Part shown: piece after piece, positions 2,707 to 21,265 of the stretch
Numbering within the stretch: position 1 is the first letter of the stretch
Layout of the letters: each line of letters opens with the position of its first letter
Made by a program: the position numbers and the translations under genes
NCBI RefSeq assembly: GCF_019134595.1
Contig: NZ_CP077770.1
Location: 2,538,501-2,602,500 of the forward strand
Origin: Pseudoalteromonas shioyasakiensis
GTDB taxonomy: Bacteria; Pseudomonadota; Gammaproteobacteria; Enterobacterales; Alteromonadaceae
Direction of reading: 5' to 3'
DNA length: 64,000 bases
The notes under the pieces: generated by a model
The model's database searches: none
What the model saw: the letters and a program-made list of their open reading frames with translations, nothing else
Told to the model about the DNA's origin: nothing

Positions 2707-4920
2707 TTGAAAATAGCTTTCTATTCTTTGGTTTTAATTCTTTGCGCAGCTTTGACATCGTGCAAAGTCAAAGACCCTAGCGAAGATAAACCAGAACAAC
2801 TAAAGAAAGATTCAATTAGTGACCGTGAAGCATTAATTGCCGGCACTGCTGACATCGAATTTTCAGTAATAGATGAAAATCAAGCGCCTCTTAGCAACGT
2901 CACTATTACAGTAACGGGTCAAGAATATCTCTCAGATACAAATGGTCGTGTTTCTATCAATAACCTTTCATTTGGTAACCATGCAGTTTTCATTTCACAA
3001 GAAGGCTATTTTCCCAAAGCCGGCATTTTAGTGAATCAACCTAACTTTTTGACCTCTCAAATTCAATTAGAAACAAAACCTGCCAACTCAAAAAGCTTAC
3101 TCTTTGCAGGTGATACTATGTTTGGTCGACGCTTCCTAGATCCTAAACTAGATACCATGGGTACATCAGTGCCTGATGTTAGTAATGCGCTAATTAGACC
3201 AGACTCAGCACGAGAAGACAGCATTGCAATTACGACCCAAGTGGCGGCACTTTTTCGAGCGGCTGACTTTTCATCAGTAAATCTTGAGTCGCCAGTGACG
3301 ACAATGCCAACAAGTGTACACCCAACCAAAGAATTCAGTTTTTTTTCACTACCAGAATCAGTGCAAAGCCTATCAGAGATTGGTATTGACTATGTTGGTC
3401 TTGGGAATAATCACATCTATGACTATTTACAAAATGGCCTTGAAGATACTTTACTTGAAGTCTCAAGTGCAGGGTTTCTTAATAGCGGCGCTGGTCTTAA
3501 CGAAACTGAAGCATTCAAAACAGTTTCGCATAACCTTGAAGATGTTACCTTAACGCTTTTTGCAGCAACCACAATTACAGGGAGAGAACATCAATACACC
3601 TATGTTGCTGATGAAAATAAAGGTGGGGCTGCAGATTTAACTAACTCAGCAGAGGTAAAAGCTGTACTTGAGCAACTTAACGCTAATGATTTTGTAATCG
3701 CGCAAATGCACGGCGGTGATGAATACTCATATACACCTTCACCCTATATTGGTAGTCGATTTGAAGTTCTTTCATCGCAGAACACCGATTTATTAATTGG
3801 TCATCATCCTCATATTGCTCAAGGGTTTGCTGTATATAACGGAATACCTGCGGTATTAGGTTTAGGCAATTTTGTATTTGACCAACCGAGACTTGACACT
3901 TTGTTAGGTCTTGCTGTGATGCTAGATCTTGATACTCAAAGCCAAACTATTAATCGCGGCTTTGCCTACCCAATATATTTAGAGGATTATAAGCCTCGAT
4001 TCACAAACGGTTTTTTAAGTCATTATTTATTGAGAAGAATCGCCGAGCTTTCTGATGATAATATTACCCTTATCCCTCGTGAAAACTACGCAGAAATATA
4101 CTTTACAGCAAATCAAGCAAGTAAAAGTTCTCAGCAAGTAACCATAGAGGTTGACGCGACTACAGACATCATCGATTTAAGACAGTATTCGCCATCTTCA
4201 GCAGCCTATGTTTCTTCTATTGAAGTGAACAATGAAGCACTTGATAGCCTTTTACTTGGCCGCGATATTATGGTGTTTGGTGATTTTGAAGATTGGGACA
4301 ATGACACCGAAGCCTTTGAAGTAAGTCGATGGGATCACAGCAGTGAAAGTGTTTTACCTTGTACTGATAAGCCACTTAATGGCTTGCAGGCTCTGTGCTC
4401 AACGCGTGATAAGTTTGATAATACCCCTTCTATCATTCCATTTAGACATACAATGCGAGTCATGGAATTAACCGACGGATCAGGCGAACTTGATCTTAGT
4501 AAAGACTTTTCGTTACTGACCTATTTGCAGTCAGAGAACGGGGGGCAGCTCGAAGCGTTATTGACCTACACCACTGAAATAGATGACCTTACCTTTGCTG
4601 AAAACAGTGTTCCAGTCAGCGAAGGAGGCGATCAGCCATGGCACGCTTTTAGTCATGATTTTAGTTTACCTTCAGATGAACAGACGCTTGGGCCTAAAGA
4701 GCTCCCCCCTCGTGGCGTTAAGTTACAGTTTAGGCACTATCCACCCAATACAGGTGAAGCAATCACTCGCTTAGATGATGTCGCTATGATTAGCTGGCAG
4801 CAAAGTATTAATCTAGAAAACGGACAATGGAAGACCGATAAAATGCACGGTTTCGACTTTTTAAAAGTCAATTCAAGTGGTGAGGTTAGTTTAAAGCTTA
4901 CATTCACTGTACTTGATTAA
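2707..4920 (+). CDS. CapA/PgsA-type lipoprotein of the Pgs-like operon
   Basis: A 737-residue protein starting at TTG with a GAGG Shine-Dalgarno six bases upstream. The N-terminus is a lipoprotein signal (LTSC, Cys about 19). Residues about 45-122 resemble a carboxypeptidase-regulatory-like beta domain. Residues about 130-400 are a CapA/PgsA calcineurin-like domain with its motifs in place: D136 in GDTMFGR, NLESP, N234-N235-H236, H335-GGDEY, H366-H-P-H369 and the LGNFVFDQ segment. About 240 further residues of unknown beta-rich sequence follow. PgsA proteins are membrane-anchored partners of the PgsB/PgsC synthase and are needed for export or elongation of poly-gamma-glutamate. First gene of the operon, ten bases before the next. 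Larger than Bacillus PgsA (about 380 residues). Confidence 0.88.
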   Translation: MKIAFYSLVLILCAALTSCKVKDPSEDKPEQLKKDSISDREALIAGTADIEFSVIDENQAPLSNVTITVTGQEYLSDTNGRVSINNLSFGNHAVFISQEGYFPKAGILVNQPNFLTSQIQLETKPANSKSLLFAGDTMFGRRFLDPKLDTMGTSVPDVSNALIRPDSAREDSIAITTQVAALFRAADFSSVNLESPVTTMPTSVHPTKEFSFFSLPESVQSLSEIGIDYVGLGNNHIYDYLQNGLEDTLLEVSSAGFLNSGAGLNETEAFKTVSHNLEDVTLTLFAATTITGREHQYTYVADENKGGAADLTNSAEVKAVLEQLNANDFVIAQMHGGDEYSYTPSPYIGSRFEVLSSQNTDLLIGHHPHIAQGFAVYNGIPAVLGLGNFVFDQPRLDTLLGLAVMLDLDTQSQTINRGFAYPIYLEDYKPRFTNGFLSHYLLRRIAELSDDNITLIPRENYAEIYFTANQASKSSQQVTIEVDATTDIIDLRQYSPSSAAYVSSIEVNNEALDSLLLGRDIMVFGDFEDWDNDTEAFEVSRWDHSSESVLPCTDKPLNGLQALCSTRDKFDNTPSIIPFRHTMRVMELTDGSGELDLSKDFSLLTYLQSENGGQLEALLTYTTEIDDLTFAENSVPVSEGGDQPWHAFSHDFSLPSDEQTLGPKELPPRGVKLQFRHYPPNTGEAITRLDDVAMISWQQSINLENGQWKTDKMHGFDFLKVNSSGEVSLKLTFTVLD

Positions 4921-4929
4921 GGAGGAATT

Positions 4930-6825
4930 TTGGCCGCACTACAACAGCTGTTGCGATTAGCGCGACAAAGAGCCTTTTGGTTCACTGTTTTCTTATTTGC
5001 GATTGTGCTTTTTAGTAACCTGCTGAATATATTTCAAGCAAGTGATGCATTTTTCTATAAAAAAATAAGCTCATTTAGCAGCACTCAGCAAACAAACGTC
5101 GTACTCATCACGAGTGAAAGCCTCAGTGCTAATCATTCAGACTTAGTCACTCAGCTAGCCGAGTATCAGCCAAGATCAATCATTATCTTAGCTGATGAGC
5201 CACTACAACCTGTGATCAAGGAAGGGGTTTTCTACCCTTATGACGGTAGTAAGTATTGCATGCCAAAAGTAGAGATTTGGGCAACCTATCAAATGCGTAT
5301 CCCTGCTGCTGATAACCTTAAATGTGAAAGTGTCTGGCAAGCAGTTTTTAATTATAACCATGACAAATCTAGATTGATTAACTTTAGGTTAGACGTATCT
5401 GCACTTCCTAAATTTTCTGCTAAGCGAGTACTTAACTACGACGTTATGAGTGAACAACTCGAAAATAAAGTAATCATTGTTGGTCAACAAGCAGCAGAGT
5501 TTAATGTAAATATACATGCTCCTAAACTTGAGGGTTTAAATGATCCTTTACTTCTTTTTGCTTATATCGCTGATAGTCTTGATAAAAATAGAACTGTAAA
5601 TGATCTGAATTTTGCTATATCGATAGTATTTGCGCTGGTATTTGTATTTGCTTTACTGTTTTTCTATCAAAAAATATCTATAAGTTATTCATTTCTAGTC
5701 GCTTTCGGCATAACTATATTTTGGTGTGCAGCCGGCTACTTTTTAGTGAACTTTACAAAGCTTTTCATCCCAATTGGCCAATACATCATACTGACATTTT
5801 CGACTTTAGTGTGGGTTGTGGTGGCTCGCAAAATTACTGAAGACAAAGAACTCACGACCGATGTCAATAACATCCAGCAAATGATGATGGGCCGTTATAT
5901 TCCGCAAAGCTTTATTGAGCATCCATCTCCGTGGGATCCTATTATTCAATTAATTAGTCAGCAATTAGATCTGGAGAAATCAATTTTTCTTGCCCGAAAA
6001 GAAGACGATCACCGAGTAGTCGAAATTCGCGCAATAAATTGCCAACTAGATGATATTCAAGAAATGAGGCGAGACTATCAACGCACACCTTACAGTAATG
6101 CGTTAAAGTCTTTAGGCATTGTGAAAATTAATCGTCCTTTTTTTAAACAAATTATTGACGGTGAAATCGAATTCATTGCACCACTTGTATACGCTGGTGA
6201 TGTGCGTGGCTTTTGGGCACTATCAATTGTCCCAAACCAAGGCTTTAATCAGCAGGCGTTTGAAAAAAACGTTAATAAGTTTGCTGCCCAGGTTGCTGAG
6301 CTGCTATTCCATTACCATATTTTTAAAACTACACAGGCTAAGAATCGTACTCTAATTAATAGACTACTGACATTTAAGCTTCATGAGTCAGTTAGTCAGA
6401 AGGTGAAAAGCTCACTTAACGAAATGGAGCAAAAGCTAACCACCTTAGAGATGGTATTTAACCACACAAGCCCTGCGACTGTTTTATTTAACTTGTTTGG
6501 TCAAATTATTCAAACCAATGCTTCTTTAGAACGCTTTGCTAAGCAGCACCAAATTGCTATTTTTGAAACGACAGCCCTTGATCTACTTTGTCGAAGCTGC
6601 GCACTTGATATCGAAACGGCAAAAGGAAAATTACGCTACATAACCTTAAATAAAGCGACTGTTGAATTACCTGCATACCTAGGTAAGCAGCCTTACACGC
6701 TTATTATTAGAGCGCTTCATTCCGATAACACACAAACCGCCTCAGGAGCGCCTTTTCAAGTGTCAGGAATACTATTTGAGTTTATTAAAGACACTTCTGA
6801 AGCAGTTCTAGAGGATAAGCTCTAA
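4930..6825 (+). CDS. CHASE2-like membrane protein with cytoplasmic GAF/PAS-like region and no output domain
   Basis: A 631-residue protein with a TTG start directly after a GGAGGA Shine-Dalgarno. One N-terminal membrane segment (about 16-36) is followed by an extracytoplasmic domain with CHASE2-like landmarks (NVVLIT early; LENKVIIVGQQA late), then three closely spaced membrane segments (about 220-300). The cytoplasmic part begins with a region that looks GAF-like (about 330-460), then a predicted coiled coil and a PAS-like region (about 490-610). I find no kinase, GGDEF, EAL, cyclase or response-regulator motif. CHASE2 domains normally sense extracellular signals. Here the protein may sense polymer or assembly state and act by contact with other operon products; that is inference. 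Its stop overlaps the next start as TAATG. Confidence 0.6.
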   Translation: MAALQQLLRLARQRAFWFTVFLFAIVLFSNLLNIFQASDAFFYKKISSFSSTQQTNVVLITSESLSANHSDLVTQLAEYQPRSIIILADEPLQPVIKEGVFYPYDGSKYCMPKVEIWATYQMRIPAADNLKCESVWQAVFNYNHDKSRLINFRLDVSALPKFSAKRVLNYDVMSEQLENKVIIVGQQAAEFNVNIHAPKLEGLNDPLLLFAYIADSLDKNRTVNDLNFAISIVFALVFVFALLFFYQKISISYSFLVAFGITIFWCAAGYFLVNFTKLFIPIGQYIILTFSTLVWVVVARKITEDKELTTDVNNIQQMMMGRYIPQSFIEHPSPWDPIIQLISQQLDLEKSIFLARKEDDHRVVEIRAINCQLDDIQEMRRDYQRTPYSNALKSLGIVKINRPFFKQIIDGEIEFIAPLVYAGDVRGFWALSIVPNQGFNQQAFEKNVNKFAAQVAELLFHYHIFKTTQAKNRTLINRLLTFKLHESVSQKVKSSLNEMEQKLTTLEMVFNHTSPATVLFNLFGQIIQTNASLERFAKQHQIAIFETTALDLLCRSCALDIETAKGKLRYITLNKATVELPAYLGKQPYTLIIRALHSDNTQTASGAPFQVSGILFEFIKDTSEAVLEDKL

Positions 6826-9800
6826 TGGACTTTGTTTTAGCGCTTTTCCCTGCAGGTAGCGGACTGGGTCAATCAGTTATTACAACAGTTTGGGTCGGCA
6901 CTGTTGTTGTATGCCTACTCAATTTGCGCTTTGGTTTTCCACTTACAGGCCTTGTAGTCCCTGGTTATATTGTGCCTCTACTCATAATTAGCCCCACTTC
7001 AGCGGTAGTTATCATCATAGAAGCTATTGTTGTGTATGGGTTTATGCGACTGGGTGCAAGTTACTTGATGGAGCGCTTTGGTTATAGCGAAATGTTTGGC
7101 AGAGATCGCTTTTTTGCCATCATCTTAATCAGTATCTTAGTCCGTGTATGCATGGATACCTTGTTTTGGCCGTTAATTGCAAACCAATTAAGTCAATGGG
7201 ATATCACCTTTGATTATGCTTCACAGCTCTATTCCCTAGGTCTGATCATTATCGCTTTAACAGCCAATGTAATGTGGAATGGGGGCTTTAAATATGGCTT
7301 AAAAGTGACTTTTATTCAGTTACTTATTACATTTATTCTCGTACGTTTTGTGCTCATGCCTTTTACAAACTTTAGTATTGCTAATTTGGGTATTATGTAC
7401 GAAGCCGTCGCTGCGTCGATTATTGCAGCTCCCAAAGCCTATATCATCCTAGTTATTACCGCTTTTCTTGCCTCTCGCGCAAATATTAAATATGGCTGGG
7501 AGTTTAACGGTATCATGCTGCCTGCGTTATTAGCTTTACAGCTGACGCAACCAAGTAAAATTTTAACCTCATTTATAGAAACTGCCGTTATATTAGCGGT
7601 AGGTAGCTCCCTTATTCATTACACTCGCCTCAAGCATGCACATATCGAAGGTGCCAGATTATTGATGCTATTTTTTACCATAGGCTTTGTTTTTAAGCTT
7701 ATTTTAAACTATTTCGTCGTTTGGTTCTTTCCAACGGTTAAAGTGACCGACACCTTTGCATTTGGGTACATGCTTGCCACCTTGCTTGCCCTTAAAATTT
7801 ATCAAAAAAATACGTTGGGCTTGGTACTTAGGGCTACTTTTCAAACTTCTGTCATAGGTGGAAGCCTTGCTATTATTGTTGGCTTTTTAGTTATGCTTAT
7901 ACCTTCTTTACTAATAAAACAAAGTATTAGCCCTGAAGCAGAAAACTTACAAGTTATCACGCTCAATCAACAAGTGAGTCAGTACAAAAGCTATTTATAT
8001 ACCACTCGCTCAAACAAAGTAACGGTAAGTAGCTATAAAGCAAGCCAAGCGGTGTCTGACTTCAAATATGCTGTTTATCAATTGAACCAAGCCATCGAGA
8101 ATAAACAAAAACCGGGCCACCTCAGTGCGTTGTTCAACGCTATCGGCTTTAAGCTTGTGAGTGATGAAAATTATGTTTATCTAATCGATATTGTTGAAGA
8201 TCAACAACGTGGGTTATTTGTGATTAATAAAACACCACAAAAAAATTTAATCATCACTGTGCCTTACCCTATAACTGAAGGCCTTGCGAGTGACTCAGCA
8301 GCTCTTATCTTCCAGCATTTAAAAAGCAAGGCTCTTGTTTTTGGCGCAACAAAAACACCTCAAGTAACGTTAGCAAAAGAAAATCAACAAAGCGCATTTT
8401 ACCAGGCTTTTATCAATGTATTAGAAATTAATGAGTTGTTACAGGTACGCGAATCAAATCGTTATACTGCCGCTTTACTCAAGAGCACGCCTAGTGATGT
8501 AAAAAGCCAATATTGGATTTTTAATCGACTTCCAGATTCTATAAGTCAGCGCGAGATCCATGAATTTTTAGGCAGTGAAGCAACTTTTTTTGGCAAAGCG
8601 GCGCAAAGTAGTTTACCCGCAACAGACTTTACGGGCTCTATGCTTGAGGTCTTTCTTGATGGAGATAATTACACCAATATTTTGGCGTATATCTACCGTG
8701 AAAATTATCGCTATAGTAACTTAAAACTTAATACAATTAATGAAGATATGGCCCAAATTGTCGATAACTTTTCCGCTTATATCAGCAGTAAAGGCAGTCT
8801 CAATTATCAGCCATTAACAGACAGCCAAGTAGCCCTTTGGGAATTTGAAGTCTTAACACCACTTTATAGGTTAATTGAACAAATTGGCAACACATCACTT
8901 AATGAAGATGTTTTAAATCATCTTAAGCAAATAAATAGTACAGCCGAATTACTGGATTATCAGCTACAACTTGTACAAAATAATAATGGACGATACCTAC
9001 TGCTTGGCCCATTGCAAAATGATGATGCCGAGGCTCTTGGGCAAGGCTTATATGCATTTTCACTGAGTAAGCATGAAGCAATCAGTTTGAGTGTTCCAAG
9101 GCCAATATTCGAAGGTAATACGTTAAGTTTCGCAAGTGGGCTTTTCACTAATTCAAATGCTGCTAACTTATTAATTGCAGGTGCACATCCTTATGCGCAC
9201 CCAAAGGCTAATGTACTAGCAGCGAATAATGTCGACTCATTATTCAATGTTGTTCATCAAAGTTATTCACGCTTTAAAGCACAACAACCAAGCTTAAATA
9301 TACAAATTCGTAGCCACAGTGCACCGTCATGGATCCGCCCTAACGCGATAGCATTTTCAAACACCCAAGTAAGAGATATCGCAAAACCTCTCATGGAAAA
9401 ACTCGCGAAAGACTTAAGCAGCTTGGGAGTTAGCTACCAAGTGGTCGAAGGTCACAAAGCCACTCGTGGACTTGAAATAGGTAGTTCCCCACAGTACGGA
9501 TATCAACAGTTTAATGCAAACAGTGAACTAGCAACTTTGTGGATCGCGTCTGATTTTAAAGAACAGTTTTCAATTGATCAAAATAGCCTTTTGATGCGGC
9601 TCCTTGCTATTTCGACTAAACCGACTGTAACGACTATTAATCTGGCTACTTTATCACCATCTAACTGGGCTGCGCTCAATAATGTGGATAAACAAGTAAT
9701 CCAGCGAAAGATTAATAAATATTCTACTGATAAAGAAATTGCGATCTTAAAAACAATATGTTTAGAACTAAATGAATGTGTATTACAAACAATAAAATTA

Positions 9801-9938
9801 GAGCAGTTGAATAAATTCGCCTTGATGATCAAAAAACAAAATACCCTAATTGCTATATACAATCCGGCTAGTAATCAGCTGATTGATATGGATGTTTTTA
9901 ACAACATGATGGTTGGAGGCTTTAATGTATCTAATTAA
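6825..9938 (+). CDS. Double CapC/PgsC-like membrane protein with large C-terminal domain
   Basis: A 1037-residue protein. Residues 1-190 match CapC/PgsC, with the hallmark LVVPGYIVP (P46-G47-Y48), a YG-FMRLGASYL segment and a GRDRFFAIILISILVR stretch. Residues about 190-375 look like a second, diverged CapC unit (IKYGWEFNGIMLPALLAL; ARLLMLFFTIGFVFKLIL). Bacillus PgsC is only about 150 residues and is the membrane partner of the PgsB ligase. The remaining 650 or so residues are soluble, probably periplasmic, and contain a possible internal duplication: VPYPITEG near 480 and VPRPIFEG near 756, each followed by a run of small residues and a LVFGA/LLIAGA strand. I cannot name the function of this part. 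The start overlaps the previous stop by one base. Confidence 0.8.
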   Translation: MDFVLALFPAGSGLGQSVITTVWVGTVVVCLLNLRFGFPLTGLVVPGYIVPLLIISPTSAVVIIIEAIVVYGFMRLGASYLMERFGYSEMFGRDRFFAIILISILVRVCMDTLFWPLIANQLSQWDITFDYASQLYSLGLIIIALTANVMWNGGFKYGLKVTFIQLLITFILVRFVLMPFTNFSIANLGIMYEAVAASIIAAPKAYIILVITAFLASRANIKYGWEFNGIMLPALLALQLTQPSKILTSFIETAVILAVGSSLIHYTRLKHAHIEGARLLMLFFTIGFVFKLILNYFVVWFFPTVKVTDTFAFGYMLATLLALKIYQKNTLGLVLRATFQTSVIGGSLAIIVGFLVMLIPSLLIKQSISPEAENLQVITLNQQVSQYKSYLYTTRSNKVTVSSYKASQAVSDFKYAVYQLNQAIENKQKPGHLSALFNAIGFKLVSDENYVYLIDIVEDQQRGLFVINKTPQKNLIITVPYPITEGLASDSAALIFQHLKSKALVFGATKTPQVTLAKENQQSAFYQAFINVLEINELLQVRESNRYTAALLKSTPSDVKSQYWIFNRLPDSISQREIHEFLGSEATFFGKAAQSSLPATDFTGSMLEVFLDGDNYTNILAYIYRENYRYSNLKLNTINEDMAQIVDNFSAYISSKGSLNYQPLTDSQVALWEFEVLTPLYRLIEQIGNTSLNEDVLNHLKQINSTAELLDYQLQLVQNNNGRYLLLGPLQNDDAEALGQGLYAFSLSKHEAISLSVPRPIFEGNTLSFASGLFTNSNAANLLIAGAHPYAHPKANVLAANNVDSLFNVVHQSYSRFKAQQPSLNIQIRSHSAPSWIRPNAIAFSNTQVRDIAKPLMEKLAKDLSSLGVSYQVVEGHKATRGLEIGSSPQYGYQQFNANSELATLWIASDFKEQFSIDQNSLLMRLLAISTKPTVTTINLATLSPSNWAALNNVDKQVIQRKINKYSTDKEIAILKTICLELNECVLQTIKLEQLNKFALMIKKQNTLIAIYNPASNQLIDMDVFNNMMVGGFNVSN

Positions 9939-12192
9939 ACGCCTCTTCGCCATTTTGGCTATTATCACGGTTTTATTAGTCGCCCTGTTTGCTTGGAATA
10001 GCTTTTTGATTTGGTTGGATTCAGCTGAGCCAGTTAATCCACAAGCAAGTAAAGAAACTCGTTCTAAAGTACAGTGGTTAAATACTAAAAAGCCACTGAA
10101 TTACACATTTTCTAACCAGCGGACTCACTCACTGCGTATACTTTCAAATGCGGTCTTTGATCAATCGGTAACGCTTGATCAACCGGTAAACTATGCCATC
10201 AAATATACACTTTATAATGATAAAAAAGAGGTGATTTTTGATGAAATTTACCACCATGCTTCAAAGCTAGTTAATAACAGTGAAGAGCAACAAATTAAGC
10301 AGATTATTGAAAATAAGCAATCCCTTAATGTTGCTTCTGGGCAATCATTTTACCTACCTATCGCTCATTACCCTGAGGCAAAAAGCCTAGCTTTATTACT
10401 TATTCCTGAAGAAAAATCAATTCAAGGCGTGGTAGTTAGAGTGCATGCAAAAACCCCTGACCAAAACGTTGATCCACTTAATAGTTGGTTAAAAAGACCA
10501 GTAGATAGACGTAAGCGTGCGACTGATTATCTCACCATGGGTGAAAATACGTTAACAAATACTGAAATAGCGAATGCAATGGCATTTTGGTGGCAAAAAA
10601 TTGCACCACAGGGTATTCCTGGAATCGACTTTAAGTCAGACATTTTATACGAAACCTTACCGTATAATGTGATTACCTATGACTTCAATCAGCAGCAATA
10701 CAGCCTTGCAGCCTATTACACTAATGAAAGCTTATGTGCCAGTATTAGGTTAGATAACAGTGATAGCTTGATTTTCACCGTCAGTAATAACCAGAATCCC
10801 CCTTCATTGGTCTGGTATGACAAGCTTCAGTTTGAAGCACCAAAAGAAATAAGCTTTACTCAAACTGATGAAGCAAACACTTACAAAACCCCATTGCTCA
10901 ATGCGGGACTCCTTACAATTTGCAGTGAAGAAGAGTTATTAACTCAATGGCGAGCAGAGTCAGGGGCTGTTATTTTAACAAGTTATGCTGGCAGTTATTT
11001 GATAAATCCTAAAGCCTCAGTTGAATTTGATATTGTCCCTGCAAGTCATCTTAATTTAGAACTTAGAGCATTAAAGAGCAGCCAATTACACGTTACTTTA
11101 TACGACAAAAATAAAAAACAAATCGAGCGATATGCCGTCACTATAAAAGGGGAAGCATCTAAGTTCGATCGCTTAATTGCTAATAACACCCAAAGGCAAG
11201 CGGTAGGCATGCTCACATCGTATTACCTACGTACACCGCAACAAGCACACTCTATTAAAGTTGAATCTAGCGACGATGTATACCTGCGTGTAAAGTCAAG
11301 ACTCGCAAACTTTCATTATCAACGCCGCACTGCACATCAACCACTTACCACTGAATCAACAGATGGCTTTTATGATATTGCAGCCTGGTATGAACAACAA
11401 GCAAGTAACCATTACGAGTTGGCGCAGCGAGAAAACTTTGTAAATATTCGTACTTTCACCCCACCTAGAGATATTGATGAAACAACAACATACTACCAAT
11501 CTAAGGAGTTATTTAATATTTTACCATTATCAAATGTGGCACTTGGTTTAAGCCCCAGCAGATACTATGAAAAGCCAGAGCCAGCACAAGAATTTAATTT
11601 TGGGATCTATAATAACAATCACTACTTCCCCTCTTCTGTCGAAAACGATAATCGACTGATATTCAAACTAAATAACAGTAGTGCTAATGAAGTCAAAATG
11701 GCTGATATCTCTTTGCCAGAAAAAATGAAATTGATTGAAAAGTCGAATACTGTTTATCAAAATTGGTATGGTCATCGCCCTTGGGTAAAACAACGCCTAT
11801 ACCAATTAAATAAAAATAAACCGATTAAGCTGCTTTATGATAAGAAAAAGCACCCAACTAGCATTGTTGTAAAAGCATTTCGTACTCAAAGTAATAAACC
11901 AATTACATTAAGTATTGATCATATTGCTAATTACAAACTTGGCCTAACAAGTGAATATAGTATTGCGAAACAAAGCTATCAGTTGCATAGCTCTGAATTA
12001 TTATCGTCATTTTTAATTCACCCCAAAAAGAGCCAATTAACTAGCTATCCTAGCGTTACATTCAAAGTCGCTAATGATATAGAGTTTTTACAGTCCGTGA
12101 ATTTAACCTCTTCCGAAACGATCTGGCTATCTATACTTGAAGAGTACCCAGTAAAGGATCGAAAAGTAAGGTGGTGGAATAATGAACAATAA
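9925..12192 (+). CDS. Membrane-anchored periplasmic protein of the Pgs-like operon, function unknown
   Basis: A 755-residue protein with one N-terminal membrane anchor (about residues 5-27), then a long region of probable beta-sandwich domains. The open frame extends to a TTG at 9913, but GGAGG at 9915-9919 is correctly spaced for the ATG at 9925, so I start there. The start lies inside the end of the previous gene (14-base overlap), which suggests translational coupling. I recognise no catalytic motif or named family. Its place between the CapC-like gene and the secreted genes suggests a periplasmic bridge or scaffold, which is inference only. Confidence 0.75.
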   Translation: MYLIKRLFAILAIITVLLVALFAWNSFLIWLDSAEPVNPQASKETRSKVQWLNTKKPLNYTFSNQRTHSLRILSNAVFDQSVTLDQPVNYAIKYTLYNDKKEVIFDEIYHHASKLVNNSEEQQIKQIIENKQSLNVASGQSFYLPIAHYPEAKSLALLLIPEEKSIQGVVVRVHAKTPDQNVDPLNSWLKRPVDRRKRATDYLTMGENTLTNTEIANAMAFWWQKIAPQGIPGIDFKSDILYETLPYNVITYDFNQQQYSLAAYYTNESLCASIRLDNSDSLIFTVSNNQNPPSLVWYDKLQFEAPKEISFTQTDEANTYKTPLLNAGLLTICSEEELLTQWRAESGAVILTSYAGSYLINPKASVEFDIVPASHLNLELRALKSSQLHVTLYDKNKKQIERYAVTIKGEASKFDRLIANNTQRQAVGMLTSYYLRTPQQAHSIKVESSDDVYLRVKSRLANFHYQRRTAHQPLTTESTDGFYDIAAWYEQQASNHYELAQRENFVNIRTFTPPRDIDETTTYYQSKELFNILPLSNVALGLSPSRYYEKPEPAQEFNFGIYNNNHYFPSSVENDNRLIFKLNNSSANEVKMADISLPEKMKLIEKSNTVYQNWYGHRPWVKQRLYQLNKNKPIKLLYDKKKHPTSIVVKAFRTQSNKPITLSIDHIANYKLGLTSEYSIAKQSYQLHSSELLSSFLIHPKKSQLTSYPSVTFKVANDIEFLQSVNLTSSETIWLSILEEYPVKDRKVRWWNNEQ

Positions 12193-12925: not shown

Positions 12926-15900
12926 TAGCCTTCTTAACATTAACACTGCTAGCCTTTAAACCTGCTTTTGCAGTACAACAAGAGCATGCTGTACTGCAGC
13001 CTCCTATTTGGTTAAAAACATCTCCAAAGCTAGACGTGTTAGCCACTACACAAACGATGCAATTTGATTCGTATGAACATCAATATTTATGGCTACCCGA
13101 AGGACACTGGTTAGAGTTCAATCCTGAATTATTTGATAAGTTCATTATGAGTGTCGGCAATACACAGTATATCCAGCAACGGATCCAAGTGGATCGTGAC
13201 TTATTATGTTTAGAAAAGCGCTGTCAGCTTCCTGCGCTTGGACATAACCGTGTTGTTGCAATTCAAAACCGCCAAGATGTGCAGGCTAAGTTTTCTGCGC
13301 AAGTTGGTCACTATAAAACCACTGTTGATAGCTTTAAACGAGCCCTAAAACTTGCCAAGCCATCAATATTACTCTCTTCGAGAAAAGGCAGCGAACGGTT
13401 TTATCAATTCGATAAAGGTGATGAGGTCACTCTATATTTTCCTGATGCAAAAAAAATTAAGCTTTCGGTCAGAAAAAATATGGAGTCATTAGATAGTCAT
13501 GGTGCTGTCTACGCGTACACAGATGAAGTTCTTACTGCAAAAGTTAATATCATCAATAACCCGGCCCTTGAATACCACAACCAACAGATAGGCCTGGTGA
13601 ATAGTGACTATTTAGCTATTGATGCGGGGCAATATTTAACCATAAAAAGCCAAGCCGATGCGTATATAAAAATATCGCAAAGCCACAGAGCCATATACGA
13701 TGATTCGACAGCCATAAAAGTCGAAGAAAAACTACTGCTTCCCTACTGGTTAAAAACTGCCAATGATGCAATGGAATCAGTTTACAACGAGTATTCGCTT
13801 AATGTTTTTAGTGACAGCGTATTTACAAAAAATAACTCCCTCGCTGTTAAGCGCTACTATGATTTGCTTGGCTTAATGTCCACACAAACTTTACTAAAAG
13901 GGAGTAGTGTCGTTCATGCTTCGAGCCCATCAAAAAAACTGCTAATTAATGAACTTGAAGAGCAGCGATTAGTTGATGATCAGTTTTATCCTCGCATTAA
14001 TAAACAGGTCAGACATATTACGTCACTTTCACAGATGACTTTAAATTTTGACTTATCAAGCCAAAAAAGAGTCACACCGTGGCTAACCTTCGTTGCCCGT
14101 AGTAATAAAGATAGTCAATTTAAGCTTAATGTCGGTGATAAAAGCTGGTTGGTTAATATTAAAGCGACACAAGAATACCAAACAATTCATGTCTCAGTGC
14201 CACTAGACAGCAAAACGATGACCATTCAGAAAACCACTGATGATGTGCCAAGTATTGATTTTGCTGTTTATGCTCGAACACTTACAGATTTTCCAAGTAA
14301 TGAAGTACTTTATTTACAACCGGGAACCCTTTCTGAAAAAAGCCCTATTACAGCACAGCTAATAACAGAGCACTTAAGGAAATTGTATAGTGATTATTTA
14401 GCGCTAATAGAGCCTTATGCCCCAGCAAGAATAAAAACTAAATTACTTAATTGGCAGCAATCTTTGCTGACAGCCAAAGATCTGGCTAAGTCTGCACCTC
14501 TAGATGCGCTTGCCTTTTTAAAACCATTAACCCAAAACCCAAACCCACAGGTAGCTGTTGAAGCATGGCAAATTAAAATAAGTATTTTGCGTGAACAACA
14601 ACAGTTTCATCTTGCTACCAGTTACTTAGAAGGACTTTATAAGAGTACTCAACAAAGGGAGTTACAAGAGTTTGCTTTAAGGTCTCTATTAGATACCTAC
14701 CAGGCTGAACACCAAGAAATAAAGTTGTTTGCGTTATGTGCCGGTAACCAAAGCTTATTGGAAGAATGTAATAGTATTCTCACCAAATTTGCGACTAAAC
14801 AACAGAAAAATAGACTCGCATTATGGCTTTTAAATAAAAAGGATAAAACTCATACAACTAAGCAAGCTTATATGGCACTGAACTACCACAGTTTAAGTCC
14901 CGGTTTCAAAGCTGAAGATAAGCAATATGAGTTACTTTCAGGTGCCCAAGAAACGTTAATTAACTCTAGTGGAAAGTTGCAAAGCACAGTGCTTTCTCAG
15001 CACATGCCATGGAAGTACACTGCATTAGAAGCGGTTCATTTGAGTATAAAAGCGCGCACAGAAGCCAAGCAAAATGGCGAGTATCAAACTGCTTGGTTAA
15101 TGGCTGATAGTCAGTACCAACATAAATTAATGCCCATTTACAGCGATATCCCGTCGACAACACTCATTGTTGAAAGTCAAAAAGCAACGTCGGTTGCCTC
15201 AACAATGATTGTGAGTCTGCAAGCTGGAGAAACACTTACTTTATCAGCTGATCACAAAGCCTTTATAGAGGTTCAAAATATACCTGATGCGTTATATGAG
15301 GCTTTTGATTACCGCTCTGATGCTGCAAACCAGTTTATTACAGGCGATATTATGTCATTAATTTATGCCTATGATGCATCACAAAATGACTTGTTAATTA
15401 ATGGTTTATACCTATTATCTAAAAAGCGTTTAAACAATAATGAATACACGCAACTATTACAGCGAATAGCCACAATTCCAGCGAGTGCCTCATCGACCTT
15501 TTTACAAAATAGAATAGAAAGCTTTGGTCATTGGCAACCCTTAGAAAGCCTAATCGATTATGCAGGTACGCGTCTTTTTAATATTCAAAGTTCAGCACAA
15601 ACCAGTTTTGCCGATAGGTTTAACCAATTCAAGACGCATCTATACAATAATGATGGTTTATTGATTCGACCATTTCATACCCTTTATATAGATTTGGCTG
15701 AAACAGAGGGAGAACAAATTCGCTTTGTCTTTAATTTTTCTACCGCAGAGCTTGCCCAAGCTAATGTAGCAAACTTATCTATTCAACTAGCTAATTCTCT
15801 AAAAGTGTGGTCTGTTACCGAGCAACAAAGTATTCCCTTTACCTTTAATAAGCGGGAGTTAGATAACAACGTCATTGCCTTACACTGGCTTAACCCCTAT

Positions 15901-17184
15901 TTATCTCAACAACTAAAAGTTGAAGTACAGCAATATACTGCGGGTCGATGGAGAAAGTTAGAATTACCAACAACGCTACTTTTTTATTCGGTTATTCCCT
16001 CTACCCCTTTGCTTGCAACATTAAATGCAGATCGTTTAATCAAGTTAGAAAAGATGAACAGCTATAGTCGAAGCGAGCGACAGTTTTTTCACCCTGCAGG
16101 GAAAATTGAAGTCAAATCTGCGGAGCTTGAACACGTAAGACTATATACTTGGGAGCTTAGTGATCTGAATAATAAGATTTCAGAGTTCACACAAGCGCAA
16201 GTTCCCTTGCCTGACTTAGTTACATATATAGCACCAAAAAAGCAAACAATAGTAAGTGAACAAAAATCATTTCAAAGTGATGATCTTAATTGGCAAGGTT
16301 TTATAAAGTATGATCAACAAGAAATATTTCAAACCGCTGAAAATATTGCAACCCGACAAGACATTGATATTGGCGCACGTTTGCGTTTTAACGACGATAA
16401 TGATTGGTACCAATTAGAAGGTTATTACTCTTTTAGTAAAGAACAAGCGGATTTGATTGCGCTCAATGGTTACTATTCATGGCAAGATAATACAACCCCT
16501 TGGTATGTTGATGCGCAAATTCAAAGCCGTTGGCAACCTAGTCATAATGGATTTGATCTTCAATATGCCCTTGATGGCAGTCTCAGTGTAGGACAAAAAT
16601 GGCAACGTGATTCTACGCATCGTCATCAATGGCAGCTAACTCCATTTATTCGTTACAGTAGCGCTGATTTAAATGATTACCTCAGTGATGACCTAATTAA
16701 TTCAAATGTTTTTAATTTTTATCGAGAAAACCATGCATCGGGGTGGCAAGGGTTTTACCAATACCGTTATCAACCTTGGGTCGATAATTATTTAAATTTC
16801 GGCGTATCATCAAGCTCAAATGATGATTGGACGAGCTTGGACTATCTGCGCTTCAACACCAGTTGGAATCAATACTATCATGATCACATTTTCCAGCTTG
16901 GCATTGATAGCTATTACCGCTTTAAAGATGACAACCGTGCTACAGCCACGTGGCAATACATCACACAATTTGCATGGCAAACACAAATTAGTTTAGGTGA
17001 TTTCTCACATGGTTGGCTTAAGGTACGACTACAACAGGATTGGGTGTGGGATAACCACAATATAAGTATCGAGTTTTCATCTGGTAACAACCAACATACC
17101 GGTTTTGAGCCTTTTGCCCATGATGAAATTATATTCCCAACACTTCAATTAAATCATTTGCTAGAGCACACTGACTATGAGTAA
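12910..17184 (+). CDS. Large secreted protein with helical-repeat middle and C-terminal barrel-like domain; candidate outer-membrane exporter
   Basis: A 1424-residue protein with a clear signal peptide (about 1-22, ending AFA). Residues about 30-480 look like several beta domains. Residues about 490-700 are helical and TPR-like. The last 275 or so residues (from about 1150) have the alternating aromatic/polar strands, 'YYSF', 'YYSWQD', 'LNFGVSSS', and W-rich turns of an outer-membrane barrel. This helical-repeat plus barrel design matches BcsC and PgaA in outline, which export cellulose and PNAG. Bacillus Pgs systems need no such protein, but a Gram-negative one would. One oddity is that the protein ends in DYE rather than an aromatic residue. 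Overlaps the ligase gene by eight bases. Confidence 0.65.
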   Translation: MPYFIIAFLTLTLLAFKPAFAVQQEHAVLQPPIWLKTSPKLDVLATTQTMQFDSYEHQYLWLPEGHWLEFNPELFDKFIMSVGNTQYIQQRIQVDRDLLCLEKRCQLPALGHNRVVAIQNRQDVQAKFSAQVGHYKTTVDSFKRALKLAKPSILLSSRKGSERFYQFDKGDEVTLYFPDAKKIKLSVRKNMESLDSHGAVYAYTDEVLTAKVNIINNPALEYHNQQIGLVNSDYLAIDAGQYLTIKSQADAYIKISQSHRAIYDDSTAIKVEEKLLLPYWLKTANDAMESVYNEYSLNVFSDSVFTKNNSLAVKRYYDLLGLMSTQTLLKGSSVVHASSPSKKLLINELEEQRLVDDQFYPRINKQVRHITSLSQMTLNFDLSSQKRVTPWLTFVARSNKDSQFKLNVGDKSWLVNIKATQEYQTIHVSVPLDSKTMTIQKTTDDVPSIDFAVYARTLTDFPSNEVLYLQPGTLSEKSPITAQLITEHLRKLYSDYLALIEPYAPARIKTKLLNWQQSLLTAKDLAKSAPLDALAFLKPLTQNPNPQVAVEAWQIKISILREQQQFHLATSYLEGLYKSTQQRELQEFALRSLLDTYQAEHQEIKLFALCAGNQSLLEECNSILTKFATKQQKNRLALWLLNKKDKTHTTKQAYMALNYHSLSPGFKAEDKQYELLSGAQETLINSSGKLQSTVLSQHMPWKYTALEAVHLSIKARTEAKQNGEYQTAWLMADSQYQHKLMPIYSDIPSTTLIVESQKATSVASTMIVSLQAGETLTLSADHKAFIEVQNIPDALYEAFDYRSDAANQFITGDIMSLIYAYDASQNDLLINGLYLLSKKRLNNNEYTQLLQRIATIPASASSTFLQNRIESFGHWQPLESLIDYAGTRLFNIQSSAQTSFADRFNQFKTHLYNNDGLLIRPFHTLYIDLAETEGEQIRFVFNFSTAELAQANVANLSIQLANSLKVWSVTEQQSIPFTFNKRELDNNVIALHWLNPYLSQQLKVEVQQYTAGRWRKLELPTTLLFYSVIPSTPLLATLNADRLIKLEKMNSYSRSERQFFHPAGKIEVKSAELEHVRLYTWELSDLNNKISEFTQAQVPLPDLVTYIAPKKQTIVSEQKSFQSDDLNWQGFIKYDQQEIFQTAENIATRQDIDIGARLRFNDDNDWYQLEGYYSFSKEQADLIALNGYYSWQDNTTPWYVDAQIQSRWQPSHNGFDLQYALDGSLSVGQKWQRDSTHRHQWQLTPFIRYSSADLNDYLSDDLINSNVFNFYRENHASGWQGFYQYRYQPWVDNYLNFGVSSSSNDDWTSLDYLRFNTSWNQYYHDHIFQLGIDSYYRFKDDNRATATWQYITQFAWQTQISLGDFSHGWLKVRLQQDWVWDNHNISIEFSSGNNQHTGFEPFAHDEIIFPTLQLNHLLEHTDYE

Positions 17185-20100
17185 TCACTTGCTTACAAAA
17201 CGCCTTGAAAACTTGCTTTTCGCAGACATTGCCAGTTTTTGGTTAGACTTATATCGTCAAAAATATCGCGAACTCGTTGATGAACTTAGTGAGTGGGAAT
17301 TAATAAAAAATCAGCCTGAGGACTATGAAGAAGATGATTGGTTATTGCTGCAAGCTATTTCATTTTTGACGCATAAGATTGATACCCTGCAAAGTCAATT
17401 AATCAAAATTGATGTCGAGCACAGACGCTTTATCGAGCGTTTGAATCATGCCGAATTAAAAGCCGAGCGTGAGTTTCATATTCTTGATTATGCGTACACT
17501 TTAGGTGCAGACCGAGAACAGTTAAAAAAAGACCAAGATGCTTTTCAACGCTGGTTTGATGAGGGAGCGATTGTAAACCGATACCAAGATAAACTCTCTG
17601 AACTTGAGCAGTCACTTAAGTTTTTAATTGGTAAATTAGGTGATTTAACCAATCGCTATTTACGGATCCACTCGGGAGAAATAACTAAATCATGGTTAAC
17701 GCTTAATTTAGAAAGCTTCTTTTTGGGGCTACTCGAAAAAAGTGAGAACGAAGCTATTCGTAACTCTATTTTTCGTGCCCTCGCCAACCAAGTAAACTTA
17801 ATTAGCGAATATGTAGATGAAACTCAATTCGACTCTGATCTTGTTGAGGTGTTATTACTATCTCTTGAAAAGCAATCGACTCCGCATGCTGCAAAAGTGG
17901 ATATTTTAGAAATCCTGATCAACTTAAGACCCACTTTTACTCACTATTTTATGCGCTCCCAAATTGACTTAGAAGTTTTACCAAATGAAAAAGTCGAAGC
18001 TCAACACCTGTTTTTACTGACTGCATTTTCAAAAATCATATGTAAGCAACCTAAATTAAGTACAACTAATTATAAACTACTTATTTTACTTGCTAAGCAC
18101 ACTTACCCTCGAGTAAGGCAGAGCGTCATTGAGCAGTGCTCAGTATTACCTGCGGCGTTTGCTCTAAAACTATTAACTGTGCGACTACAAAAAGAAACCC
18201 ATGAAGCGATACAACTAACACTCATTAAACAATTAACAGATCCTCGCTTAACCGAAGAGTTGCAAGTTTTTCACATTTGGCGCAAGCAACTAAAAATTGC
18301 GCAAAGCTTTGCCCAGAAGCGCTTATTACTCGAATTAACACCAAGGATTATGTTCAATTTACAAGTTGATTATGAGCAGCAAAGCCAAGCAGATTTATTG
18401 TTTAAGTCTTTTATCAATGTTTTAAATACGCAGCTTGAAAATGAGAAAAATATTGCAATCAAACGAGTTATTAGCCGGGTTAGAGAGCAGCTTGTATGTT
18501 TTATGTACCAACAACAAGTCGCGGAGCTAGAGTTTAACTTAAACTCAAACTTAAGCATTAATTTAAACTCAGAGTGGGTTGACCAAGATTTACTTGGCCG
18601 ACTTTTGAGTAGGCAAGCGCAGAATAATGAAGCCTTTAATGTAGCAATGAAAAATAAAGGCTGGCAAATACAACGTGGTTACAAGCGAGGCTTTCGTTTT
18701 TGGCGACTCTGGCATGAATTTAAAAACCCAAGTACTGGTAAACGCCAAAGCTTTAATCATGTACAAGGGCGAAAACCAAGTGCATTTATGCATGTGCCGA
18801 GCTGTACCGTTGCGGAGATTAGTCAGACGGAAGTTCCAGGAGAGCCTCGCTTTGATGCCGAGCAGTTTAGTGCCCGACCTCATTTACCTATGCTTGATTT
18901 TCTGTTGAGTGCATTGTCGCAAGACAACCTGAAAACACCTGCTAAATCGTTCACGCCTGATGGTATTTTAATCGTCACACCTCCTTCCAATGTATTCAAG
19001 CGCATGTATGCATACAGTTGGATTTCTTTCAACTTTGAAAGGTTGGATGATTTACGTAATGGTTCTGAGCATGAACAACAAGACTATCTAGAGTTAATAA
19101 AAGCGAAAGGCTTCAAACTTGATTTTCAACAATATGGTTCTGTGCTTGATGCCGAATTCCCTGTTGAATCGAGTATTGCCAACTTATATCAAAAGCTGTC
19201 GCTCACGCCCTTCTTATTCAATATGTGGTCAAGTTTTAAAGAGTATGCTTATTCGCTTTATCAAAATAGCATAGGCCAACTGATATTTTTTGTTTTAGCT
19301 TTCTCAGCGTACTTTTGGGCACGCCATATAAGGATAAGTAGGCAAATAAAGTCAGACAGAGCAAAGATACCGGTCTCTATTGGTGGCTGGGGAACGCGAG
19401 GAAAGTCAGGCACTGAGCGCTTAAAAGCAGCATTATTTAGTAGTTTAACTCTAAAAGTGATCAGTAAGACAACGGGTTGTGAAGCAACTCTTATTTATGC
19501 AAGAGCAAGTGGAGAGCAATTCGAAATTCCATTATTCAGACCTTTTGATAAAGCGAGTATTTGGGAACAAAGCGATGTTTTGCACTTTGCAACAAAAGTA
19601 AAAGCAGATGTATTTCTGTGGGAATGTATGGGTTTGACCCCGCGCTATGTAAAAATATTAAGGAATTGGATGGCTGATAACTTTTCAACTATAACCAATG
19701 CTTACCCAGACCATGAGGATATATTAGGCCCAACGGGAATTGATGTTGCAAACGAAACAAGCCATTTTATCGGTGAGAATAGTTTAGTGTTCACAAGCGA
19801 GCAAAACATGGCTCCAATTCTAGAATTAAATGCAAAACAGAAAAACTCTAACTTAATTCAAGTTCACTGGGCCGATGGCTTGCAAATAACGGATGATATT
19901 CGCTCCTTGTATCCTTACCAGGAGCATCCGTCCAATATTGCACTGGTGTGCAAAATGGCTGAGCATATTGGCTTAAATAAAGATTATGTCTTCAAAGAAA
20001 CGTCCGCACGAATTGTGCCTGATATTGGCGTTTTAAAGCTCTTTACTGAAGCGCCCATTGGAAGAATTAGTCAATCGTTCGTCAATAGCATGTCTGCAAA

Positions 20101-21265
20101 CGAACGCTTGGCTACCTTAGAAAACTGGCAGCGCCTTAACCTTGAAGGATTAAATAACGACCCTAAAACCCAGGTAATCGCGCTTATAAATAACCGTAAC
20201 GATCGTGTCGCGCGTTCAAAGGTTTTTGCTACCATGCTTAGTAATGACTTACGTTTTGACCGTGTTGTGGTAATAGGAAGTAATGTAGATGGATTTTACA
20301 GTTACTTTCTCGATGCATTTATAGAAAGAGTCGAAAAGCTAATTGAAATCAATGCTATTGATAGCCTAGATAAGCTTCTAGTGCAATTTAATATCCTCAG
20401 TGAAGCTGAAGTGAAAGCAAGGTTAAAAGTCGCATATGGCGCTATGGCTGCTGAGAACTTACTTACACTTAGCGAAGGGGTCTTGAATAAATCCTGTATA
20501 AAAGAAATCACTGGCGAGATATCCAATCAAGAACTCAGCACAATTATTTATACCCTTCGCACCTATTATCAGAGAATACACTTGAACTCTCTAAAAAGTG
20601 ATATTGAAAAAAATAGTAAACAAATAAAAGAGCGCTTGATTTCTATCGTCCAATCTAAAGTCACCTTAGTTGACGACAGCAATATATCTGCAGATGAGAT
20701 AACCAATATTATTGCTGATTTAGCTTTACCCAATACTCATCAAGTTGTTGTTGGTATGCAAAACATTAAAGGAGCAGGGTTAAATTACGTTTACGCATGG
20801 CAGCAATGGCAAAAAGTATCACAAACTATTACGAGTATGCTGAATAAGCACTGCACCGCTAAAGAGTTCAGAACGGCATTAACAAATTTAAATATGATTG
20901 TCTCATTTAACATGCTTGAAACAGATTACTTAAAGGAAAAGTTGGTTATTCTTAAGAAAAACCAACTTGCACAAAATGAATTCTGCCAAGCAGAAATAAC
21001 AACTCTTCAAGAAAAAATAAATGAGGAAAATTTAAAACTAGAGGATGACAATTTGCAATCTCGTCCAGCTCGTTATTTTAACCAAATGATCGAATCATTT
21101 TTAGATGCAGGCGCTGCTGTAAAACGTAAAAAACTTGCTATTCAGATTTACGATGATATTGCTGAACAGCGAATTACATTAGAAAAAGCAATAAAATTAC
21201 TTAGCGAAATGAACCGCAATCAAAAAGCTGGCTGGTTTGCCAAAAAACGAAAGTTTAAAGAATAA
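17177..21265 (+). CDS. Giant CapB/PgsB-type amide ligase with N-terminal helical extension
   Basis: A 1362-residue protein. A membrane segment near 700-717 is followed at once by the Mur-ligase-type P-loop GGWGTRGKSG (736-745). Other PgsB landmarks follow in order: SKTTGCEA, the W815-E-C-M-G element, ITNAYPDHEDILGP (839-852), FVNSMSANE, NNRNDRV and VVVGMQNIKGAG. PgsB uses ATP to activate a gamma-carboxylate and join glutamate units. Bacillus PgsB is about 390 residues; here about 700 residues precede the core, the first 450 or so helical and HEAT-like, and an insertion lies between NNRNDRV and the last motif. The residue joined could differ from glutamate. Last gene of the operon. Confidence 0.85.
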   Translation: MSNHLLTKRLENLLFADIASFWLDLYRQKYRELVDELSEWELIKNQPEDYEEDDWLLLQAISFLTHKIDTLQSQLIKIDVEHRRFIERLNHAELKAEREFHILDYAYTLGADREQLKKDQDAFQRWFDEGAIVNRYQDKLSELEQSLKFLIGKLGDLTNRYLRIHSGEITKSWLTLNLESFFLGLLEKSENEAIRNSIFRALANQVNLISEYVDETQFDSDLVEVLLLSLEKQSTPHAAKVDILEILINLRPTFTHYFMRSQIDLEVLPNEKVEAQHLFLLTAFSKIICKQPKLSTTNYKLLILLAKHTYPRVRQSVIEQCSVLPAAFALKLLTVRLQKETHEAIQLTLIKQLTDPRLTEELQVFHIWRKQLKIAQSFAQKRLLLELTPRIMFNLQVDYEQQSQADLLFKSFINVLNTQLENEKNIAIKRVISRVREQLVCFMYQQQVAELEFNLNSNLSINLNSEWVDQDLLGRLLSRQAQNNEAFNVAMKNKGWQIQRGYKRGFRFWRLWHEFKNPSTGKRQSFNHVQGRKPSAFMHVPSCTVAEISQTEVPGEPRFDAEQFSARPHLPMLDFLLSALSQDNLKTPAKSFTPDGILIVTPPSNVFKRMYAYSWISFNFERLDDLRNGSEHEQQDYLELIKAKGFKLDFQQYGSVLDAEFPVESSIANLYQKLSLTPFLFNMWSSFKEYAYSLYQNSIGQLIFFVLAFSAYFWARHIRISRQIKSDRAKIPVSIGGWGTRGKSGTERLKAALFSSLTLKVISKTTGCEATLIYARASGEQFEIPLFRPFDKASIWEQSDVLHFATKVKADVFLWECMGLTPRYVKILRNWMADNFSTITNAYPDHEDILGPTGIDVANETSHFIGENSLVFTSEQNMAPILELNAKQKNSNLIQVHWADGLQITDDIRSLYPYQEHPSNIALVCKMAEHIGLNKDYVFKETSARIVPDIGVLKLFTEAPIGRISQSFVNSMSANERLATLENWQRLNLEGLNNDPKTQVIALINNRNDRVARSKVFATMLSNDLRFDRVVVIGSNVDGFYSYFLDAFIERVEKLIEINAIDSLDKLLVQFNILSEAEVKARLKVAYGAMAAENLLTLSEGVLNKSCIKEITGEISNQELSTIIYTLRTYYQRIHLNSLKSDIEKNSKQIKERLISIVQSKVTLVDDSNISADEITNIIADLALPNTHQVVVGMQNIKGAGLNYVYAWQQWQKVSQTITSMLNKHCTAKEFRTALTNLNMIVSFNMLETDYLKEKLVILKKNQLAQNEFCQAEITTLQEKINEENLKLEDDNLQSRPARYFNQMIESFLDAGAAVKRKKLAIQIYDDIAEQRITLEKAIKLLSEMNRNQKAGWFAKKRKFKE

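Follow-up and report, generated by a model that had tools for sequence, protein, structure and literature searches.

An operon of the poly-gamma-glutamate synthase kind in Pseudoalteromonas shioyasakiensis, with putative equipment of its own for export across two membranes

The window analysed here is a stretch of 64,000 nucleotides from Pseudoalteromonas shioyasakiensis, whose genome comprises 4.72 Mb in two contigs. At positions 2707–21265 of the plus strand it carries seven open reading frames (ORFs) arranged head to tail, with one gap of 9 nt and overlaps of 1–26 nt at every other junction, as the first-pass annotation of this DNA had described. In order, they encode a CapA/PgsA-like lipoprotein (gene 1), a CHASE2-type membrane protein (gene 2), a long CapC/PgsC-like protein (gene 3), a membrane-anchored protein (gene 4), a secreted protein resembling poly-gamma-glutamate (PGA) hydrolases (gene 5), a secreted protein with a predicted outer-membrane barrel (gene 6) and a long CapB/PgsB-like ligase (gene 7). 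The operon is real, conserved and more structured than first noted. It is of the PGA-synthase kind, and has what we infer to be its own export equipment. We consider it likely that it encodes a single machine for the synthesis and secretion of an amide-linked anionic polymer, most likely PGA, in a two-membrane envelope. Gene content, co-occurrence, homologies, predicted folds and residue patterns are computed results; the identity of the polymer, the direction of transport and the role of each protein are deduced from them.

The genes occur together. The ligase is present in 21 of 60 whole genomes: the source genome, 18 of the 35 further genomes from the genus and 2 of the 24 from other families. 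Profiles of genes 4, 5 and 6 recover the same 21 genomes and none of the remaining 39. The 18 same-genus loci have an identical gene order, 16 of them with all seven genes and two without CapA. Scanning one genome per species with the CapC alignment gave 80 loci from 123 relatives, 48 in Pseudoalteromonas and 32 elsewhere. Each of genes 2–7 is found in 47 or 48 of the 48 Pseudoalteromonas loci (the count of 47 for gene 5 is a loss by the ORF caller, the gene being present in that genome too), and CapA in 43. Among the 14 loci outside the genus that span at least 21 kb, gene 2, CapC, gene 4 and the ligase are found in all 14, gene 5 in 13 and gene 6 in 11. Constant order and all-or-none co-occurrence exclude the possibility that these are chance neighbours.

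The first-pass annotation had treated the seven genes as one unit, and had named co-occurrence in other genomes beforehand as the point on which this would stand or fall. The genes do co-occur, and they keep their order beyond the genus and its taxonomic order, but CapA is not a fixed member. It is missing at the locus in all 32 loci outside Pseudoalteromonas, and the idea of a fixed seven-gene unit was dropped; most of these 32 stretches stop within the ligase, so that a CapA gene farther downstream would escape. This is the arrangement in Zhongshania antarctica, where a long CapA lies downstream of the ligase (L143:2515-4815 and 4961-6220, with a 419-aa gene of no assigned function between). 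The conserved module is genes 2–7, CapA excluded.

The gene order recurs in gammaproteobacteria outside the genus. Nine of 369 genomes of the class match the CapC alignment, six of them at full length including the source genome; four of the other five were retrieved, and all four have genes 2–7 in order (L159 is the same contig as L091). At the level of the phylum, 6 of 398 genomes match PF14102 above its cut-off, namely the source genome and five that belong to a single other family. Each of the six has two matches on a single ORF, five of these ORFs being 1039–1089 aa long and one 502 aa; in a further genome there is one weak match, which falls short of the cut-off. The tandem form is also found among planctomycetes. 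In 199 genomes from the phylum of L120 (Planctomycetales), 11 match PF14102, the centre genome included; ten have the tandem form on ORFs of 1036–1233 aa, and the eleventh has just one match. Nine loci of this phylum were read. L157 alone has all six genes in order together with a receiver gene, its gene 2 being split into two ORFs. L154 and L155 have gene 2, CapC, gene 4, the barrel gene and the ligase, with gene 5 not recognised. In L152, CapC and genes 4 and 5 are present, along with a weak match to the barrel that is truncated at the edge. No barrel and no ligase were found within the stretch read in L151, L153 and L156, and L158 and L163 are short contigs. Three of the ten planctomycete-phylum genomes with the tandem form, G463, G581 and G612, have a short single CapC besides the long double CapC gene, so that there are perhaps two different PGA-type systems per cell.

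Two other possible settings for the module were rejected. Among 72,556 plasmid records no CapC protein match was found at E 1e-20, which speaks against a plasmid-borne module, and genes 4, 6 and 7 and the downstream protein gave no PADLOC match, which speaks against an anti-phage system.

The synthetic core of the operon is recognisable. Gene 7 matches the PgsB model TIGR04012 over residues 718–1051 with 207.9 bits (E 1.9e-61), the equivalog cut-off of 222.7 not being reached; its relatives in L041 and L118 score 216.3 and 182.0. Its homology to the PgsB superfamily is clear. Twelve long ligases, two of them alphaproteobacterial, share 138 invariant residues, most densely in the ligase domain that bears the P-loop, and the motifs GGWG-x-RGKS, KTTG, WECM and N-x-R-x-DR are invariant in all 12. 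We take these to be like the Bacillus motifs. The large conserved N-terminal part (residues 1–690, window 17177–19246) has no family match in the source genome; the corresponding region contains HEAT repeats in L118, one of two relatives scanned. Ahead of the ligase domain there is only one weak hydrophobic segment.

Gene 3 matches PF14102 with 108.5 bits against a gathering cut-off of 27, in two separate stretches on one ORF, which bears out the double CapC/PgsC membrane protein proposed in the first-pass annotation. With TIGR04011 it scores 50 bits against an equivalog cut-off of 96.45, the protein having two units and 1037 aa compared with 132 for the model. Going by its sequence, gene 3 is a member of the PgsC superfamily, though under the equivalog cut-off. 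The annotation would also have failed if the ligase and the CapC protein lay outside the PgsB and PgsC families; profile searches place both inside the superfamilies, below the equivalog cut-offs, and the intact core motifs of the ligase agree with this. No match to either protein was found in a sequence search of the PDB. In two relatives, L111 (Colwellia) and L108 (a deltaproteobacterial metagenome assembly), the CapC gene is in two ORFs, a split that could be genuine or could stem from misassembly.

As judged by crude hydropathy, gene 5, like genes 4 and 6, has an N-terminal hydrophobic segment. In Foldseek its best match is a PGA hydrolase with bound PGA. The predicted fold is that of the PGA hydrolases PghP and YndL. 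In the family of 25 sequences, H78, H146 and E222 are present in all 25 and D82 in at least 90%; their metal-binding and catalytic roles are presumed from the carboxypeptidase fold, and not from a structure alignment. The secreted PghP-like protein of the first-pass annotation is thus supported by fold and presumed active-site residues, the PF05908 match itself being absent: the gene 5 protein does not match this family, and one of the 25 family members does so weakly (E 0.014). A solo second copy of the hydrolase family, 350–377 aa long and with the same residues, is found elsewhere in the genome in 7 of 60 genomes, all of which bear the operon. Four of the seven were read (L164:3944-5077, L165:3981-5042, L166:3869-4933 and L167:4099-5151).

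The CapC protein contains two further domains related to gene 5. With profiles built from single-query sets, the gene 5 profile matches two stretches of CapC proteins, and the CapC profile in turn matches gene 5. In profile-profile comparison with the gene 5 family, the probability is 97.4 for repeat 1 and 97.9 for repeat 2, with 99.5 for one repeat against the other and 0.1 for the membrane part of gene 3, which served as control; these comparisons were made one against one, so that their E-values should not be read as coming from a database search. At the position of the first metal histidine, repeat 1 mostly has Tyr, Phe or Ala (His in 15 of 95; Tyr in gene 3), while repeat 2 has Arg in 88 of 99 and His in none, gene 3 also having Arg. 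The second histidine position, where the alignment reaches it, is Arg in 16/16 for repeat 1, and Arg in 10/15 and His in 5/15 for repeat 2. The acidic position stays Glu (88/95 and 92/99 respectively). The catalytic Glu is not kept in a longer alignment of the repeats, and the local alignments hardly reached its position. Because the metal histidines have mostly been replaced, the repeats are mostly degenerate. They are probably pseudoenzymes that bind the polymer and do not cut it. The first-pass annotation was right that CapC is larger than in Bacillus, but had not seen that the extra mass is, by these profile comparisons, two copies of the hydrolase domain, both degenerate. The alphaproteobacterial CapC proteins are shorter (846–863 aa), and in these neither repeat was matched at the threshold applied.

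Gene 6 provides the candidate route through the outer membrane. The first-pass annotation saw a 1424-residue secreted protein with a barrel-like end, and the predicted structure agrees: the C-terminal end is modelled as an outer-membrane beta-barrel, a full 14-strand pore most like the CymA and OmpG channels. Helices are predicted ahead of the barrel, where one relative out of 22 gives a weak TPR match (E 0.003), and a SPOR domain was found by Pfam scan in 1 of 22 (E 7.7e-8). Compared with PDB sequences, gene 6 gave three weak rows, the best of which (E 0.0035) aligns its helical part with a helical-repeat protein. Gene 4 has one N-terminal hydrophobic segment forming a single membrane anchor, and was rightly described as a membrane-anchored protein of no recognised family; no match was found in NCBIfam or the PDB, and a Pfam scan of its family gave scattered weak matches, the best with E 0.0024 in 3 of 23. 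Neither Pfam nor NCBIfam profile scans assigned genes 4, 5 or 6 to a family.

Three loci suggest a connection between genes 4 and 6. In L112 (Sphingomonas), L118 and L119 (Qipengyuania), which we take to be alphaproteobacteria, gene 6 is absent at the locus, and its profile finds nothing elsewhere in these genomes at E 1, two positive controls being found. Gene 4 in these three is 266–270 aa long, with the last two thirds absent. Since gene 4 is short where the barrel is missing, these few loci, from two genera, hint at a barrel-related role for its last 500 residues. Without a barrel, the polymer may either leave by another route or be retained inside.

Gene 1 is the sole PF09587 match in the source genome, and this match and its lipobox uphold the CapA/PgsA-like lipoprotein of the first-pass annotation. 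PF09587 was found over its cut-off in 5 of 7 non-Pseudoalteromonas whole genomes tested, Zhongshania among the five, and in none of the five Pseudoalteromonas genomes that have no CapA at the locus. Gene 2 was annotated as CHASE2-like, and this affinity stands (PF05226 at 24.3 bits against a cut-off of 26.3), but the protein, which has no HATPase match, is rather the remnant of a sensor kinase. Its orthologue in L087 has both CHASE2 (40.0 bits) and HATPase (27.9 bits) over cut-off, and that in L040 has HATPase only, under cut-off. The kinase end is present in 23 of 25 other loci and in 3 of 48 Pseudoalteromonas loci. A gene for a CheY-like receiver lies directly 5' of CapC in 14 of the 30 other loci whose upstream sequence exceeds 500 bp, and in none of the 48 in Pseudoalteromonas; one receiver was confirmed against Pfam and the rest were called by similarity to it. 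By this comparison gene 2 is descended from a CHASE2 histidine kinase.

On the basis of these observations, we hypothesise the following mechanism. The membrane-anchored CapB-type ligase would join glutamate units on the cytoplasmic side, driven by ATP, and the double CapC membrane domain would pass the chain across the inner membrane. In the periplasm, the two degenerate hydrolase-like domains of gene 3 would hold the chain without cleavage. The anchored gene 4 protein, together with the helical and beta part of gene 6, would form a bridge to the 14-strand barrel, from which the chain would exit. The active hydrolase may trim or release chains, or clear those that have stalled; AlgL and PelA have such roles for polysaccharides. 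Gene 2, derived from a kinase that elsewhere often lies beside a receiver protein and in Pseudoalteromonas mostly without its kinase end, probably controls output.

Other readings differ in what the polymer is and where it goes. It might be an amide-linked polymer other than plain PGA, with another or a modified amino acid, or with glutamate chains on another acceptor; export would be unchanged. This is a minority possibility, against which stand the PGA-bound hydrolase as top structural match of gene 5 and the invariance of the ligase core motifs in the 12 sequences compared. The polymer might also be kept in the envelope, either within the periplasm or attached to the outer membrane, for storage, osmotic or structural purposes, with the barrel serving to anchor or display it and not to export it. 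The three alphaproteobacterial loci, which keep the synthesis genes and have no barrel, would fit, as would the classing of Thiodiazotropha CapB and CapC as storage genes in the accessible part of PMC11168628; the clam symbionts L087, L092 and L116 carry the module. We find retention improbable, however, as elsewhere the barrel gene lies within the operon, the 60 genomes have either both it and the ligase or neither, and the predicted fold is a complete 14-strand pore.

That the barrel instead imports external gamma-glutamyl polymers or peptides, which the hydrolase and ligase then recycle, is very unlikely. The barrel does resemble the CymA and OmpG channels and adjoins a protein of PGA-hydrolase fold, but an ATP-driven ligase and a CapC channel are parts for synthesis, CapC bears degenerate hydrolase domains, and Pfam and NCBIfam place none of the seven in an importer family.

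The operon shares with PgsBCA/CapBCA of Bacillus a P-loop CapB-type ligase, a CapC-type membrane protein and a CapA-type protein, the gene order in Bacillus being different. It differs in length, the ligase being about 3.6 times (1362 compared with 380) and CapC about 7.9 times (1037 compared with 132) as long as the respective NCBI models. CapC here is a double unit joined to two degenerate hydrolase domains, CapA is optional, and an anchored protein, a hydrolase and an outer-membrane barrel are added. Gene 5 is like PghP/YndL (PF05908) in fold and in presumed metal and catalytic residues, but is encoded within a synthesis operon, with inactive-looking copies on the channel. Gene 6 is like PelB, BcsC, PgaA and AlgK/AlgE in having helical and beta domains before a C-terminal outer-membrane barrel, and their operons also place the exporter beside a synthase and a polymer-cutting enzyme. 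In contrast, the operon here has an ATP-driven amide ligase and no glycosyltransferase match in Pfam or NCBIfam, and its barrel is predicted to have 14 strands, compared with 16 or more in exopolysaccharide exporters. Profile searches of gene 6 against PDB sequences and Pfam matched no exopolysaccharide exporter.

In the literature, the CapsuleFinder model for PGA-type capsules needs only CapB and CapC and finds them in most phyla, including Planctomycetes; as set out in the accessible text of PMC5542703, it comprises CapA–E only, forbids PgsS and has no outer-membrane part. The first-pass annotation held that known systems act across a single membrane. Since PGA-type loci from Gram-negative phyla are already in print (same source, same portion), this was too narrow, and the new part is the trans-envelope equipment. 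A CapB-CapC-CapA locus of typical organisation is described for Cloacimonadota in the portion of PMC13082233 available, and a capB transposon mutant of Pseudoalteromonas T1lg65 without swimming, which may be hit in this ligase, in that of PMC6275029. The operon in PMC10634453 is, from the part available, a polysaccharide operon; that paper made deletions in P. lipolytica, a species of which records L043 and L046 carry the present operon. In addition, a term search of the available text of PMC5751247 did not return the words Gram-negative or outer membrane. No outer-membrane part or exporter for PGA was found in the literature covered, which leaves out most subscription journals and all bioRxiv preprints.

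We think it somewhat probable, if less so than the reading of the operon itself, that the module represents an undescribed and widespread trans-envelope class, present in Pseudomonadota and at least one further diderm phylum. In this class a non-ribosomal polyamide would be made and secreted across two membranes, with inactive hydrolase copies, fused to the inner-membrane channel, guiding the chain to a dedicated outer-membrane pore. By analogy, it could be the amide-polymer counterpart of synthase-dependent exopolysaccharide secretion.

The features of the operon are collected in Table 1. Promoter scans gave a yield in the operon no better than in shuffled sequence. Terminator scans gave one hairpin ahead of gene 1 (2404–2428) and another near 21243 on the minus strand, where 0.4 and 0.3 were expected. 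On the 3' side of the operon are two similar secreted-looking proteins in tandem, of 413 and 414 aa (window 21535–22776 and 23124–24368); the former matches DUF642, with weaker matches to choice-of-anchor C and propeller-like domains.

Table 1 Features of the operon, in window coordinates
Feature	Position	Strand	Basis
Gene 1, CapA/PgsA-like lipoprotein, 737 aa, accessory	2707–4920	+	PF09587, 160 bits; lipobox LTSC
Gene 2, CHASE2-type membrane sensor without kinase end, 631 aa	4930–6825	+	PF05226, 24.3 bits, below cut-off
Gene 3, long CapC/PgsC-like protein, 1037 aa	6825–9938	+	PF14102, 108.5 bits, two stretches
Gene 3 residues 1–371, membrane part with two CapC units	6825–7937	+	PF14102 matches; hydropathy
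Gene 3 residues ~383–600, first degenerate PGA-hydrolase-like domain	7971–8624	+	Profile comparison with gene 5 family
Gene 3 residues ~690–930, second degenerate PGA-hydrolase-like domain	8892–9614	+	Profile comparison with gene 5 family
Gene 4, membrane-anchored, no known family, 759 aa, probably periplasmic	9913–12192	+	N-terminal hydrophobic segment
Gene 5, secreted PGA-hydrolase-like enzyme, 247 aa	12182–12925	+	Fold and residues
Gene 6, secreted outer-membrane protein, 1424 aa	12910–17184	+	N-terminal hydrophobic segment; no family
Gene 6 residues 464–658, helical segment, repeat-like	14299–14883	+	Predicted helices; weak TPR match in 1/22 relatives
Gene 6 residues 1123–1395, predicted 14-strand outer-membrane beta-barrel	16276–17094	+	Predicted structure
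Gene 7, long CapB/PgsB-like ligase, 1362 aa	17177–21265	+	TIGR04012, 207.9 bits
Gene 7 residues 718–1051, ligase domain, invariant P-loop GGWG-x-RGKS	19328–20329	+	TIGR04012; comparison of 12 ligases

The operon offers a concrete candidate for each step in the passage of PGA through a Gram-negative outer membrane, and makes this passage testable by gene deletion in a culturable Pseudoalteromonas. The long double form, and not the Bacillus form, accounts for most CapC genes in the two phylum samples. The CapC protein would exemplify how dead copies of an enzyme can be put to new use on a channel, as domains that bind the polymer, and with this system the polymers that marine bacteria and clam symbionts export would come to include an amide polymer.

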